Origin: a virus
Virus record (IMG/VR): IMGVR_UViG_3300005882_000548
Coordinates: 1-20,316 of that record
DNA: 20,316 nucleotides
Strand: one strand, 5' to 3'
Shown: piece by piece, positions 5,108 to 20,316 of the stretch
Position numbering within the stretch: position 1 is the first letter of the stretch
Layout of the letters: each line of letters starts with the position of its first letter
The notes under the pieces: model-generated
Told to the model about the DNA's origin: nothing
The model's database searches: none
What the model saw: the letters and a program-made list of their open reading frames with translations, nothing else
Made by a program: the position numbers and the translations under genes

Positions 5108-6055
5108 ATGGCACAGCAATCGGGCGCATTTTCAAGGTTATTGCTTGGCTTTGAAACGACATTCAAGACGGCGGCAACTGCTGGCTTTGTGATGCCCATT
5201 AATTCAAGTTCAGTTAAGGGATCTCGGAACCAGAATACGGCGGCGACCATCCGGGGGAATTTAAACCCGGTCGAACCGTTTGATGGAAATACGTCGGTAT
5301 CCGGACAGGTGGTTGTGCCGGTGGACTCCATCGCGTTCTGGTACTGGCTGAAAGCCCTGTTTGGCGATCCGACAACGACCGGCACAAGCCCGTATGTCCA
5401 TGTGTTCAAGGCCGGGAACGAAAGGCCGTCTTTGACATTGGAACATCAGTTTCCTGACTTGGATACGGCTAAGTATTTTCAGTACACCGGATGCAAGGTC
5501 AATGGCATGTCGCTGAATGTCGGCGGAGATGGAGAGCTTACGGCGTCTTTTGATATCATTGGTGCGAAAGAAACCATTGCGGCAGCGTCTTTTGACGCAT
5601 CTCCAACAGCAGTTGGATTCAGCCGGTTAAAAAATAATCAGGCAGCAATACAAGAGGGTGGATCGTCTGCCACGAACGTGACCCAGGTTGATACATCAAT
5701 CAACATTAACTGCGACTCTACACAATATGTAATCGGTGGGGGCGGAGAGCTTGGGTCAATTCCTGACGGTGTTATGGCCGTATCTGGAAATTTTAACGCC
5801 TTGTTTGAAAATACGATATCGCTTGAAAAGGCAGTGAACAGCACAGAATCAAGCTTGCAAACGACGATTGCAGATGGGCCAAGCTCAATTCTGGATATCC
5901 TTATGCCGGAACTTAAATACTCACTGAACAGCCCTGGAATAGACGGTCCGCAAGGCATCGCCATTTCCCTGCCGTATTCTGCTTATTATGAGGATGCGAC
6001 AGAGGAAACATCCGTACAAATCACCCTTACCAACACTGAGGAGCACGCTGTATAA
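5108..6055 (+). CDS. Phage tail tube protein
   Basis: A 315-residue major tail protein that would stack as hexameric rings to form the tail tube. The opening (SGAFSRLLLGFETTFKT) and the repeated pattern of strands joined by Gly/Thr/Asn loops are typical of the Phage_tube_2 type: QVVVPVDSIAFWYWLKALFG, then the KYFQYTGCKVNGMSLNVGGD and GELTASFDIIGAK pair. The C-terminal part (SIPDGVMAVSGNFNALFEN onward) repeats the same kind of strand pattern, suggesting two related halves. The start has AAGGA about eight bases upstream. Its stop shares one base with the next ATG. No contractile sheath gene is nearby and the later genes are lambda-like, so the tail is probably flexible and non-contractile. Confidence 0.8.
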   Translation: MAQQSGAFSRLLLGFETTFKTAATAGFVMPINSSSVKGSRNQNTAATIRGNLNPVEPFDGNTSVSGQVVVPVDSIAFWYWLKALFGDPTTTGTSPYVHVFKAGNERPSLTLEHQFPDLDTAKYFQYTGCKVNGMSLNVGGDGELTASFDIIGAKETIAAASFDASPTAVGFSRLKNNQAAIQEGGSSATNVTQVDTSININCDSTQYVIGGGGELGSIPDGVMAVSGNFNALFENTISLEKAVNSTESSLQTTIADGPSSILDILMPELKYSLNSPGIDGPQGIAISLPYSAYYEDATEETSVQITLTNTEEHAV

Positions 6056-6402
6056 TGGAAACAGTTGTAATTGACAGCCATAAGATTGACGTATACCCGC
6101 TTAAAAAGGAACAGATCCGGGAATTAGAAGACTATGGATTTTCTTTTTTCTTCTGCCGGCCGCCGTTGGAAAACGCACACGGCGCCATGGATGCAGCGTT
6201 TGAACTTGCCCTGTCTGAATCTGATCGAGACTTCCTAGAAGGAAGGCCAGTAAAAGACTCTATAACGGTCTGGAAGGCTTTACTGGCAGAGACATACGGC
6301 GGAGGTGAAGACGAAAAAAACTTGAACGGCACCTCTCCTGGTGGATCGACAGAAAACGAATCGAATACTGCCGGCGCTGCGGGTGCCGAAAAACAGATAT
6401 AG
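6055..6402 (+). CDS. Tail assembly chaperone (lambda gpG position)
   Basis: A 115-residue acidic protein just after the tail tube gene. Residues 1-80 look folded (VYPLKKEQIRELEDYGFSFF, AFELALSESDRDFLEGRPVK). The last 30 residues are Gly, Ser, Asn and Thr rich and look unstructured. In lambda the equivalent gpG and its frameshift product gpGT coat the tape measure before the tube polymerises around it. The same arrangement is present here: codons 87-89 read GAA AAA AAC and contain an A AAA AAC slippery heptamer. A -1 shift there leaves the disordered tail and enters the next gene's frame. The function is assigned from position and the frameshift signal rather than from clear sequence similarity. 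Confidence 0.7.
   Translation: METVVIDSHKIDVYPLKKEQIRELEDYGFSFFFCRPPLENAHGAMDAAFELALSESDRDFLEGRPVKDSITVWKALLAETYGGGEDEKNLNGTSPGGSTENESNTAGAAGAEKQI
6315..6321 (+). other. Programmed -1 ribosomal frameshift site (A AAA AAC)
   Basis: The heptamer A AAA AAC lies in the correct register: zero-frame codons are GAA, AAA, AAC. After a -1 slip reading continues at 6321 with CTT GAA CGG. That frame is open without a stop through the GTG at 6402 and on to 6650. The predicted product is 89 residues of the first chaperone joined to 109 residues of the -1 frame, 198 in all. Only a weak hairpin (CACC/GGTG, 6330-6333 with 6340-6343) follows. A comparable G/GT frameshift is a conserved feature of long-tailed phages. 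Confidence 0.8.
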
Positions 6403-6650
6403 TGCGGTGCCGGGATTGTGAGTATGGCAGCCCGGTGCCGCTTTGGGAAATCAACCAGGGTGTCTGGCATGTATGGCAGGAAGTCCAGACGCAATGGCGG
6501 GCCGGGGCCATGGGTATCATTGGCCTTGACTATGCGGAAGTCAGGAATGCTTTTGAAGAACTTGGAATTGATTACACCCGGAGAAACAAACTTAAAATCA
6601 TGCTCATGGAAAGGCTATTTTTAGAGAGTGTCAAACCAAGCGACAAATAG
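6402..6650 (+). CDS. Tail assembly chaperone extension, DUF1799-like (lambda gpT position)
   Basis: An 82-residue reading frame if started at the GTG that overlaps the preceding TAG. The segment VWQEVQTQWRAGAMGIIGLD followed by YAEVRNAFEELGI matches the DUF1799 signature of the second tail assembly chaperone. There is no convincing ribosome site before the GTG. The frame is open upstream to 6321, and the upstream A AAA AAC site suits expression mainly as a fusion to the previous protein. In the fusion the residues before Val-Arg-Cys (the GTG codon) contain extra cysteines, so this ORF alone has only half of that motif. It would act in tape-measure loading and tube assembly. Confidence 0.75.
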   Translation: MRCRDCEYGSPVPLWEINQGVWHVWQEVQTQWRAGAMGIIGLDYAEVRNAFEELGIDYTRRNKLKIMLMERLFLESVKPSDK

Positions 6651-7371
6651 TGCGGCATCCTTCACTCTGAAAGGTGGTAAGAAAGTTGCAAGTTGGCTTG
6701 AGCAACAACGCGAAGCTGCGCAAAAAGCGCATAATACTGCGCTTAGAGCAGAGGGGTACCGCCTTAAAAATTTGTTGCAGAAAGAGATCCGGCAAGGTTC
6801 CCCGGGCGGCAGACCGTTTAAAAAATTATCGTATATTTCTAAATACCATTGGAAGCGGCCAAACCGCAAACCGCTTGACACCCTGGCAAAAGGTGTCCGC
6901 TATTCTGTAAATCCAAGGCCTCCATACGCCGTCGCAGTTGGCTTTGTTGGACCGATGACATGGAACGATGCTGATTTAGGCCTTGGATACGAAGGCGTCA
7001 GGGTAAATCAATATTCGCAATCAAAAGTCAGAAACGAAAGTTTAAACCCTCTTGGCCGTGGAATCTCAAGATCGAACATTTCGTCTAAGAAATGGAGATA
7101 TCTTGCCAAGATACATCAAGATGGTTTTGAGCGGGAAGTGTCTGAAAGCCAAAGAAAATGGTTAATTCGGCGTGGGTCTGACTTGATAAAGCACTCTAAG
7201 TTTGATCGGGAAGATGTTTCGCAAACTCCTTTTTTTCTTAAGAAATCAACAAAATCCATGACCACGGCTGCCCGGCCCATCATTGCTCCATTCTGGCAGG
7301 CCCACCAAGCCGCGGCGCGGTCCAATATCCGTAACAACTTTAAACGTAAAATGTCCGGGGAAAGAATATGA
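6628..7371 (+). CDS. Putative tail completion / virion morphogenesis protein
   Basis: A 247-residue, very basic protein with a GTG start, overlapping the chaperone frame by 23 bases and the tape measure start by 4. The N-terminal half has a long helix (WLEQQREAAQKAHNTALRAE) then LLQKEIRQGSPGGRPFKKL. The middle has PPYAVAVGFVG, and the end is helical and basic (IAPFWQAHQAAARSNIRNNF). Basic helix, GRPF-type loop and beta-strand layouts are seen in the HK97 gp10 / Mu gpG / lambda Z group of tail completion proteins. I could not settle the family by eye. Its position between the chaperones and the tape measure is slightly unusual, since the chaperones normally abut the tape measure gene. Confidence 0.45.
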   Translation: MSNQATNSAASFTLKGGKKVASWLEQQREAAQKAHNTALRAEGYRLKNLLQKEIRQGSPGGRPFKKLSYISKYHWKRPNRKPLDTLAKGVRYSVNPRPPYAVAVGFVGPMTWNDADLGLGYEGVRVNQYSQSKVRNESLNPLGRGISRSNISSKKWRYLAKIHQDGFEREVSESQRKWLIRRGSDLIKHSKFDREDVSQTPFFLKKSTKSMTTAARPIIAPFWQAHQAAARSNIRNNFKRKMSGERI

Positions 7372-9347
7372 CAGACAGCCGACTTGAAATTGTTTTAGCT
7401 GCGAAAGACATCACGGGTAAGGCCTTTGATAACGTCCAGGCCAGCATAGCCGGTTTGGGTAAAAGCCTTTTTTCTGTTAACGGCATGATTGCCGGTTTTA
7501 CTGGAGCTGCCGGGCTTGGCCTGGTTGCTAAACAGTCCATGGATGCCGTTGCAGAGATTGACCGGCTGTCCACTATGGCTGGGGTTGGCTCAGAATCTTT
7601 TCAGGAGCTATCATATGCTGCTGGGCAGTATCAGATTACTCAGGATGCCTTGACCGACGGGTTAAAAGAATTGTCTCTGCGGGGGGATGAGTTCGCTGTT
7701 ACAGGCAAGGGGCCAGCAGAAGAATCGTTTAAACGACTTGGGTACTCTGCCGAAGAGCTTAACGGAATGCTTGATGACACCCCGGGGTTGTTACGGGACA
7801 TTATATCCCGCATGGAAGGACTCGACAAAGCGTCCCAGATCCGCATTGCAGATGAGCTATTCGGCGGTACCGGGGGTGAGCAGTTTGTTTCCATGATCCA
7901 GGGCGGGGCCAAGGCACTGGACGACATGCGGCAGTCTGCCCATGATCTGGGCGTAGTCATTGACGACGATATGGTTAAGCAGAGCGTTGAGGCTAAAAAG
8001 CAAGTTGAAAATCTTACGACCGTTTTGTCATCAAATTTCAACGGCGTGGTGGCTGAACTTTCTCCGCATATAATTAATGTGTCAACCGGAACACTTGATT
8101 GGGTAAAGGCAAATAAAGACCTGATAGGTCAGGGCGTTGATGTATTTGTCCATGAAGTAGGAGATGCTTTTGACTTTGTATCAAATGCCGTAACACGCAC
8201 CACCGAGGCCGTTGACAAACTCGTTTCTACTTACAATAAATTCCCGGATTCTCTGCTTACTCGGTTTTTAAAATCCCAGCTCGCAGAAGGTCAGAGTTAT
8301 GTAGATTTTTTAAATAGTGATCAAGGGCTTGGTTATGTGGATAGCTGGCTTAAGAAGGCGCAAGGTCAGCCGAAGCATTCCAAATCTCTACAATCTTCAT
8401 CTCGCGCAAACGTGGCCATTAGTACCGCATCAGAAACCACAAAAGCCATGCAAAAAGAGGTTAACGACCTCGTTGATGCAAAGTTGGCAGGTTGGTTCAA
8501 CGAGGTAGATATTGCCGCCGAAAAATACATTGATATGTTTAAAGAAGGTGCACAAGTAACGCTTGACATGCGCACCCCCACAGAACAGCTCGCAGACGAA
8601 ACAGATCGCCTGAATGAATTGTTAAGCGCAGGGGCGATAAATGCAGAGACGTTTGGCAGGGCCATGGTTAATGCTCAGGAAGATATAAAAGGCAGCGCTG
8701 TGGATGCTGACCTTGAGGCGTTTTTCAGCGAAATTGATAGAAAGTCAGATGAATTGGCAAAGAAAACGACCACGGATTGGGATAACGCCTTCGCAGGCTG
8801 GGCCAACTCTTATTCATCAACACTAAACGATATGCTCTGGGGGTCAGAGACAACATTCGAAGGTATAGCCACATCTTTTGGCAAAATGATCACGGAAATG
8901 ATTATTCAGCAGGAGTTGATAAAGCCGTTTGTGAGTGGTGCGACTGGTGATGATGGATGGATTAGCCAAGGGTTCGGCGCAATAACTAACTGGATTGCAT
9001 CTGAGCACGGCAATGTTTTTGCGTCAAACCAATGTGGAATATCCGCATACTCAAATCAGATTGTATCATCTCCAACTGTTTTCCCGTTTGCCTCCGGTAT
9101 CGGGCTCATGGGTGAGGCAGGTGCAGAGGCAATATTCCCATTAACCAGGATGCCAACCGGAAACCTTGGAGTAGAGGCAAAATTAAACGGTGGATCGTCT
9201 ATAAACGTTGTCAATAACATAACGGTCGAATCATCCGGAAACGCAGACGATGACCAGGAGCTGGCCAGAAACATTGCAACCCAAATAGATGTGGCCGTGC
9301 GCCGGATCATTGCCGATGAAAAACGGCATGGGGGATTGATCGCGTAA
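7368..9347 (+). CDS. Tail tape measure protein
   Basis: A 659-residue protein that sets tail length and is ejected ahead of the DNA. The start (MTDSRLEIVLAAKDITGKAF) and the following hydrophobic stretch (residues about 33-53, with GMIAGFTGAAGLGLVAKQ) are typical. The region about 60-230 holds the usual LSTMAGVGSESFQELSYAAG and LADELFGGTGG-like segments. The central part is helical. The C-terminus (SGIGLMGEAGAEAIFPLTRM, then SSINVVNNITVESSG) matches the conserved lambda H-like end. At roughly 1.5 angstrom per residue this length would give a tail near 100 nm. It overlaps both neighbours by a few bases. It is short compared with lambda H (853 residues). Confidence 0.93.
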   Translation: MTDSRLEIVLAAKDITGKAFDNVQASIAGLGKSLFSVNGMIAGFTGAAGLGLVAKQSMDAVAEIDRLSTMAGVGSESFQELSYAAGQYQITQDALTDGLKELSLRGDEFAVTGKGPAEESFKRLGYSAEELNGMLDDTPGLLRDIISRMEGLDKASQIRIADELFGGTGGEQFVSMIQGGAKALDDMRQSAHDLGVVIDDDMVKQSVEAKKQVENLTTVLSSNFNGVVAELSPHIINVSTGTLDWVKANKDLIGQGVDVFVHEVGDAFDFVSNAVTRTTEAVDKLVSTYNKFPDSLLTRFLKSQLAEGQSYVDFLNSDQGLGYVDSWLKKAQGQPKHSKSLQSSSRANVAISTASETTKAMQKEVNDLVDAKLAGWFNEVDIAAEKYIDMFKEGAQVTLDMRTPTEQLADETDRLNELLSAGAINAETFGRAMVNAQEDIKGSAVDADLEAFFSEIDRKSDELAKKTTTDWDNAFAGWANSYSSTLNDMLWGSETTFEGIATSFGKMITEMIIQQELIKPFVSGATGDDGWISQGFGAITNWIASEHGNVFASNQCGISAYSNQIVSSPTVFPFASGIGLMGEAGAEAIFPLTRMPTGNLGVEAKLNGGSSINVVNNITVESSGNADDDQELARNIATQIDVAVRRIIADEKRHGGLIA

Positions 9348-18906: not shown

Positions 18907-18955
18907 TGGTCGGGATGAGAGGATTTGAACCTCCGACCCCCTCGTCCCGAACGAG
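18907..18955. other. Inferred prophage attachment site within the tRNA-Pro 3' half
   Basis: Phage genes stop just left of the tRNA 3' end and host genes begin on its 5' side, the usual arrangement when a prophage integrates into a tRNA gene and restores its 3' part. The exact core cannot be fixed because the other end of the prophage is outside the window; a second copy of this 3' segment is expected there. Confidence 0.45.
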
Positions 18956-18983
18956 GTGCTCTACCAGGCTGAGCCACATCCCG
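18907..18983 (-). tRNA. tRNA-Pro (anticodon CGG)
   Basis: 77 bases including an encoded CCA. Acceptor stem CGGGATG pairs with CATCCCG, discriminator A. The anticodon stem CCTCG/CGAGG holds loop TTCGGGA, giving anticodon CGG. D-arm (GCTCAGCCTGGTAGAGC) and T-arm (GGAGG TTCAAAT CCTCT) are complete. It closely resembles E. coli proK tRNA. It lies 46 bases after the purA stop on the same strand, so the two are probably co-transcribed. Its 3' end faces the phage, which suggests it is the attachment gene. Confidence 0.95.
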
Positions 18984-19029
18984 ACGCATAAACCGCTACT
19001 TAATATACCAGAATTAAGAAAATGTCAAT

Positions 19030-20316
<1,287 letters not shown>

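Follow-up and report, generated by a model that had tools for sequence, protein, structure and literature searches.

The window analysed here is an IMG/VR virus record (IMGVR_UViG_3300005882_000548) of 20,316 nucleotides, and the analysis was directed at its tail module around positions 6055-6650. In this module a tail tube gene is followed by a putative tail assembly chaperone pair, one extra gene, and the tape measure gene (Table 1), placing the pair in the position of G/GT-type chaperones; minor tail genes are also present. The 247-residue protein of the extra gene shows weak similarity to tail completion/Neck1 PHROGs, and as the sole scan query it retrieved nothing beyond copies of the same phage. 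Compared with window positions 8401-8739, a co-occurring variant of this phage (L012/L014/L002) has a tape measure protein lengthened by ∼70-80 residues through an in-frame tandem duplication, which predicts a longer tail. The variant also has clustered substitutions at 7500-8400, and its frameshift region is identical to that of the window (no differences in L012/L014). At the right end (18907-20316), a minus-strand tRNA-Pro(CGG) adjoins an ORF that, from its sequence, we take to be a putative purA (adenylosuccinate synthetase-like); these neighbors suggest that the phage is an integrated prophage whose candidate attachment site is the tRNA.

Table 1. Window coordinates of the putative frameshift site, its flanking elements, and neighboring tail genes.
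Feature	Position	Strand	Basis
Tail tube protein, PF18906	5108-6055		Pfam match
Zero-frame ORF, putative tail assembly chaperone (gpG-like), 115 aa; residues 1-89 common to both products	6055-6402	+	ORF, synteny
Internal Shine-Dalgarno (SD) match, GGAGGTGA	6301-6308	+	Anti-SD pairing energy; missed in the initial annotation
Slippery heptamer, A AAA AAC	6315-6321	+	In register with ORF 6055-6402
-1 part of predicted fusion, 109 aa + stop: Cys4 zinc-ribbon-like segment, then DUF1799; gpT-like	6321-6650	+	Open frame
Zero-frame 26-codon Gly/Ser/Glu tail past the shift site	6322-6399	+	Alignment with relatives
Stem 5' arm, CGGCACCU, 5 nt past the heptamer	6327-6334	+	Folding; homologous stem covaries
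CxxC...CxxC, codons 6369, 6378, 6408, and 6417	6369-6419	+	-1 frame, four invariant Cys
Stem 3' arm, GGGUGCCG	6381-6388	+	Folding; register one base off relatives
DUF1799 domain, residues 30-98 of the -1 product	6408-6614	+	PF08809
Gene of 247 aa between chaperone pair and tape measure gene	6628-7371		
Tape measure gene	7368-9347		

An initial annotation of this DNA had placed A AAA AAC in the exact register for a -1 shift, and its account of the reading frames was borne out. The zero frame of the upstream ORF reads GAC GAA AAA AAC TTG across the site, and the -1 frame is open from after TGA 6306-6308 to TAG 6648-6650 with no internal stop. A shift at the heptamer would give the 198-residue product described there (89 + 109 residues), 26 codons ahead of the zero-frame stop. 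The recognition of DUF1799 in the second frame was equally sound, as PF08809 matched with an E value of 3e-12 (47 bits versus a curated cut-off of 26). As a bare 7-mer, AAAAAAC is not rare (10 in the window versus 6.3 expected). Over the 31 codons in which a shift would be productive, the chance expectation is 0.01 for an in-register A AAA AAC and 0.08 for any A6/GGGAAA/TTTAAA heptamer, and the remaining doubt over a chance heptamer is removed by its conservation in relatives. Sequencing error was excluded because other contigs are identical over the frameshift region.

Conservation of the slip site

We assembled the clade of the window via relatives of the tail tube protein and alignment scans, which yielded 24 non-redundant relatives that encode DUF1799 in the -1 frame. 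Scans using the query proteins singly (P0001/P0002) returned copies of the same phage and distant matches with no close relatives, and the fusion protein as a query against genome contigs found nothing. A canonical heptamer was present at the aligned site in all 24 relatives, being A AAA AAC in 23 and G GGA AAC in one. The latter is the nearest relative (L158/L212), with protein identities of 64% in the zero frame and 76% in the -1 frame. Relative to the window, GAA AAA AAC is replaced by GAG GGA AAC (L158), a change of three bases and one amino acid that keeps the X XXY YYZ pattern. At the A-type sites (23 relatives and the window), the base preceding AAA AAC was A in 24 of 24, although the codon that it completes may specify Glu, Ile, Leu, Thr, or Val; because the third base is A whatever the amino acid, selection is on the nucleotide run and not on the protein. 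The codon one position further upstream was GAG in 17 of 25 sequences.

The -1 product is conserved as well. Its (K/G)KL at the junction is kept in the clade, and nearly all 24 relatives have a Cys4 segment ahead of DUF1799 (four are cut off or spaced differently). Between the heptamer and the first CxxC, the -1 frame contains no ATG, GTG, or TTG in the window or in 23 of the 24 relatives, and few such codons occur upstream of the heptamer.

Wider loci were gathered by DUF1799 protein similarity, not by heptamer. A AAA AAC or G GGA AAC was found in the correct register, with DUF1799 in the -1 frame, in 111 of these 115 loci, the exceptions being four Webervirus copies that lack a canonical heptamer. 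The 111 loci form 42 clusters at 80% nucleotide identity, 21 with A AAA AAC and 21 with G GGA AAC, and 37 of the 42 have the zero-frame stop immediately next to the heptamer. Taken with the 24 clade relatives, these loci answer the concern raised in the initial annotation that homologues might lack a slippery site or carry stops in the -1 frame. A further set of loci agreed in 44 of 46 cases; in L197 the heptamer is present but the ORF runs off the end of the contig, and in L246 a canonical heptamer is absent. Among nine upstream proteins of the wider loci that were tested, seven passed the cut-off for PF08748 (Phage_TAC_4), one (L024) fell just under it, and one (L005) had no match.

Annotation of such pairs varies. 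DUF1799 is listed as a separate gene in PMC9658991. In phage HK578 (L018, 1399-1722), gp15 and gp16 are annotated as two genes at the junction GAA AAA AAC TAA, with gp16 starting at ATT because a normal start codon is absent; there is probably an unannotated frameshift throughout Dhillonvirus. The depositors of Klebsiella phage Sweeny do annotate a DUF1799-type frameshift product, and in Sweeny and other Webervirus (L019, about 1440-1470) the annotated chaperone frameshift has the junction GCA AAA GTT TAA without a canonical heptamer.

Elements flanking the slip site

The initial annotation had seen only a weak 4-bp hairpin downstream of the heptamer, which was incorrect. Folding gave a stem with eight outer pairs (6327-6334 with 6381-6388; -24.4 kcal/mol, z -2.2 to -2.5), and its start 5 nt past the slip site lies within the range of about 5-9 nt of a dnaX-like signal. 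The fold energy alone is not extreme for the G+C content, as 7.9% of matched windows were as stable; only 58 of 20,246 windows combined equal stability with a helix of at least seven pairs starting 4-9 nt in.

When the stem was aligned in six distinct relatives, 89.7% of cells were paired, as compared to 36-46% when the alignment was slid, and 7 of the 13 stem pairs had changed on both sides (GGCACC/GGUGCC, ACCAUUAC/GUAAUGGU, ACCACUAC/GUGGUGGU). The covariation score, which derives from only six distinct sequences with shared ancestry, was 0.564; shuffles gave 0.274 (0/500), and slid alignments gave no more than 0.185. In per-sequence dinucleotide shuffles, all seven members including the window outscored their shuffles (p 0.01-0.04). 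The 3' arm of the window pairs one base further 3' than that of the relatives, and because its stem is one base out of register, the window is counted as mostly unpaired in the strict covariation analysis. An Rfam search gave no match. A second subclade (L168, L174, and L176-L178) has a short hairpin (GTCTGGG/CTCAGAC) ∼7-8 nt past the heptamer that replaces the long stem; taken singly, these sequences were mostly not significant versus shuffles.

Upstream of the heptamer lies GGAGGTGA, whose pairing to the 16S anti-SD has an energy of -15.4 kcal/mol. None of the other 20,306 window positions scored pairs as well, whereas real start sites tested in the window reached -11.4 at most. The sequence has no ATG, GTG, or TTG at initiation distance 3' of this match. 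Its GGAG (6301-6304) is followed after 10 nt by the heptamer at 6315. This is the spacing of E. coli dnaX, our control (AGGGAG-10 nt-AAAAAAG; anti-SD -7.4), and falls within the 9-14 nt at which an SD stimulates -1 frameshifting (PMC5009743). In clade relatives the purine-rich matches are weaker (-5.3 to -7.7); an average of 30% of the control positions upstream were as good, compared with 50% expected. An SD as a family-wide stimulator was rejected, as enrichment is absent in the wider DUF1799 family. Because the clade matches are weaker and the wider family is unenriched, a stimulatory role for the SD, which is strong in the window only, is suggestive. With an SD match and a conserved stem flanking the heptamer, the earlier proposal that efficiency may come from the heptamer alone is not supported.

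Products of the two frames

The N-terminal part shared by both predicted products could be aligned among 14 clade members and ends in an invariant ETYG...N. This protein had no Pfam or PHROG match, and profile comparison with the PF08748 set revealed no similarity. Its fold model (pLDDT 86) gave repeated but weak BFVD matches to phage tail assembly chaperones (TM about 0.45-0.65), the best match (E 0.015) being an unnamed protein, and a PDB fold search with both model parts found nothing. These weak fold matches, the synteny, and the presence of PF08748 (Phage_TAC_4) in the same position of wider relatives support the earlier assignment as a tail chaperone. The -1 part was modeled by AlphaFold with a pLDDT of 90. 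C19, C22, C32, and C35 of the -1 product are invariant in clade alignments, and the first two precede GTG 6402, the sole possible start of the -1 ORF in the window.

In most clade members the zero-frame stop (TAG/TAA) is 39 nt past the heptamer, as compared to 78 nt in the window and L158, and the distance ranges from 3 to 117 nt across the clade. The triplet at 6361-6363 is TCG in the window and TAG/TAA in relatives; read in the -1 frame, the same change is synonymous (Ile, ATA to ATC). The zero-frame tail of the window is longer because the ancestral stop became TCG, and we infer that the Gly/Ser tail is a stop-loss extension.

Discussion

We are nearly certain, judging from the sequence, that this putative tail assembly chaperone gene undergoes -1 programmed ribosomal frameshifting. 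The analysis established the register, the open -1 frame, the conservation, the heptamer swap, and the stem covariation in relatives, and from these we infer production of the fusion, a G:GT ratio, stimulator roles for the flanking elements, and a role for each protein part. Most ribosomes would translate 6055-6402 into the 115-residue G-like protein. A smaller share would slip at A AAA AAC while the P site is occupied by tRNA-Lys (AAA) and the A site by tRNA-Asn (AAC); having retreated by a single base, these ribosomes would read on in the -1 frame to 6650, yielding a 198-residue G-T-like fusion with the Cys4 zinc ribbon and DUF1799 at its C terminus. Both GGAGGTGA (10 nt upstream) and the stem (5 nt downstream) are probable stimulators of this slip. 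By analogy with lambda gpG/gpGT (PMC5009743), coating of the tape measure protein would fall to the shared part and recruitment of tail tube subunits to the fusion-only part. Efficiencies of 6% and 7% were measured for two tail-chaperone frameshift genes of an HK97-like cluster (PMC3711429).

Were the locus instead two separate genes, the DUF1799 ORF would start at GTG 6402, coupled to TAG 6400-6402, and the heptamer would be incidental. The GTG does overlap the zero-frame stop, and databases often annotate the pair in this way (e.g., HK578 gp15/gp16). However, independent initiation fails because conserved codons precede GTG 6402: those of the first CxxC in the invariant Cys4 are among them, and the heptamer-to-CxxC stretch of the -1 frame is conserved while lacking a start codon in 23 of 24 relatives. 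Moreover, the heptamer is not only conserved but swapped from A AAA AAC to G GGA AAC, and HK578 gp16 must be started at ATT for want of a normal start, making separate genes exceedingly improbable. The same swap bears on transcriptional slippage, by which the polymerase would add or drop an A in the seven-A run (6314-6320) and generate -1-fused mRNAs. Seven A is short for such slippage, and it fails because relatives carry G GGA AAC; the nearest has GAGGGAAAC there, with equal-base runs of at most three, and half of the wider-family clusters have G GGA AAC. Ribosomal slippage, in addition, would be expected to involve a stem and a heptamer in frame. Thus, although seven consecutive A are present and cases of this kind have been described (PMC5009743), we find this origin of the fusion very hard to credit.

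It is also conceivable, if rather unlikely, that the frameshift is real but needs only the heptamer, with the SD match and stem of the window arising as by-products of coding sequence. The wider family, with its unenriched SD and a stop codon mostly right after the heptamer, is consistent with this, as is the proportion of G+C-matched windows that equal the fold energy (7.9%). The stem covariation in the clade and the per-sequence shuffles argue against it, as does an SD match that is the best in the window and stands at the dnaX spacing. We see an even chance that this clade of uncultured phages and prophages rebuilt the family signal, with dnaX-like stimulators (the SD and the covarying stem, its 3' arm falling within the codons for the first CxxC of the zinc ribbon) replacing the stop that abuts the heptamer and freeing the tail to lengthen by stop loss.

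Frameshifting in phage tail chaperones is already known, and what is added here is a complete three-part signal and a stop-loss tail. Three features, namely the heptamer swap at one site, the third-base constraint, and the covarying stem, allowed the frameshift to be established from sequence alone. Annotation is corrected as well, as DUF1799 phages are often entered as two genes and nearly all of those examined carry the shift site. Because the zero-frame stop is 78 nt from the heptamer, members like the window may be missed by software of the PRFect type, which weighs the distance to that stop (PMC10885494). The clade also provides a natural series, varying in heptamer type, stop distance (3-117 nt), SD strength, and stem, for the study of stimulators of the G:GT ratio.

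The -1 frameshift of the lambda tail assembly chaperone genes (gpG/gpGT) is described in PMC5009743, and for tail-chaperone -1 frameshifting of this type PMC3711429 cites Xu, Hendrix and Duda 2004. By its arrangement, the window locus appears to belong to the G/GT-type tail chaperone frameshifts, as it lies, like the lambda pair, between the genes for tail tube and tape measure and shares with that pair the overlapping -1 ORF and a conserved X XXY YYZ near the end of the first ORF. Unlike lambda, whose heptamer is GGGAAAG, the window has A AAA AAC, an N-terminal protein without a Pfam match, a T-part of zinc ribbon and DUF1799, an extra gene before the tape measure gene, and the SD and stem elements. 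Pairs of PF08748 and PF08809 (Dhillonvirus HK578 and many Pseudomonas prophages) resemble it in having DUF1799 in the -1 frame, both heptamers, and the (K/G)KL start; however, their stop nearly always abuts the heptamer and they have no Cys4, whereas in the clade of the window the stop comes 3-117 nt later and Cys4 precedes DUF1799. Sweeny (Webervirus) likewise has an annotated fusion ending in a DUF1799-like part, but its GCA AAA GTT TAA junction has no canonical heptamer and it lacks Cys4. In its signal the locus resembles E. coli dnaX, in which an SD, 10 nt, an A AAA AAG/C heptamer, 5 nt, and a stem follow one another as in the window. The dnaX gene is unrelated, its shift stops at once to give a shorter protein, and its slip codon is AAG where that of the window is AAC. 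The locus would thus represent an ordinary type of event, a G/GT-type tail chaperone frameshift, with an unusually complete dnaX-like three-part signal.
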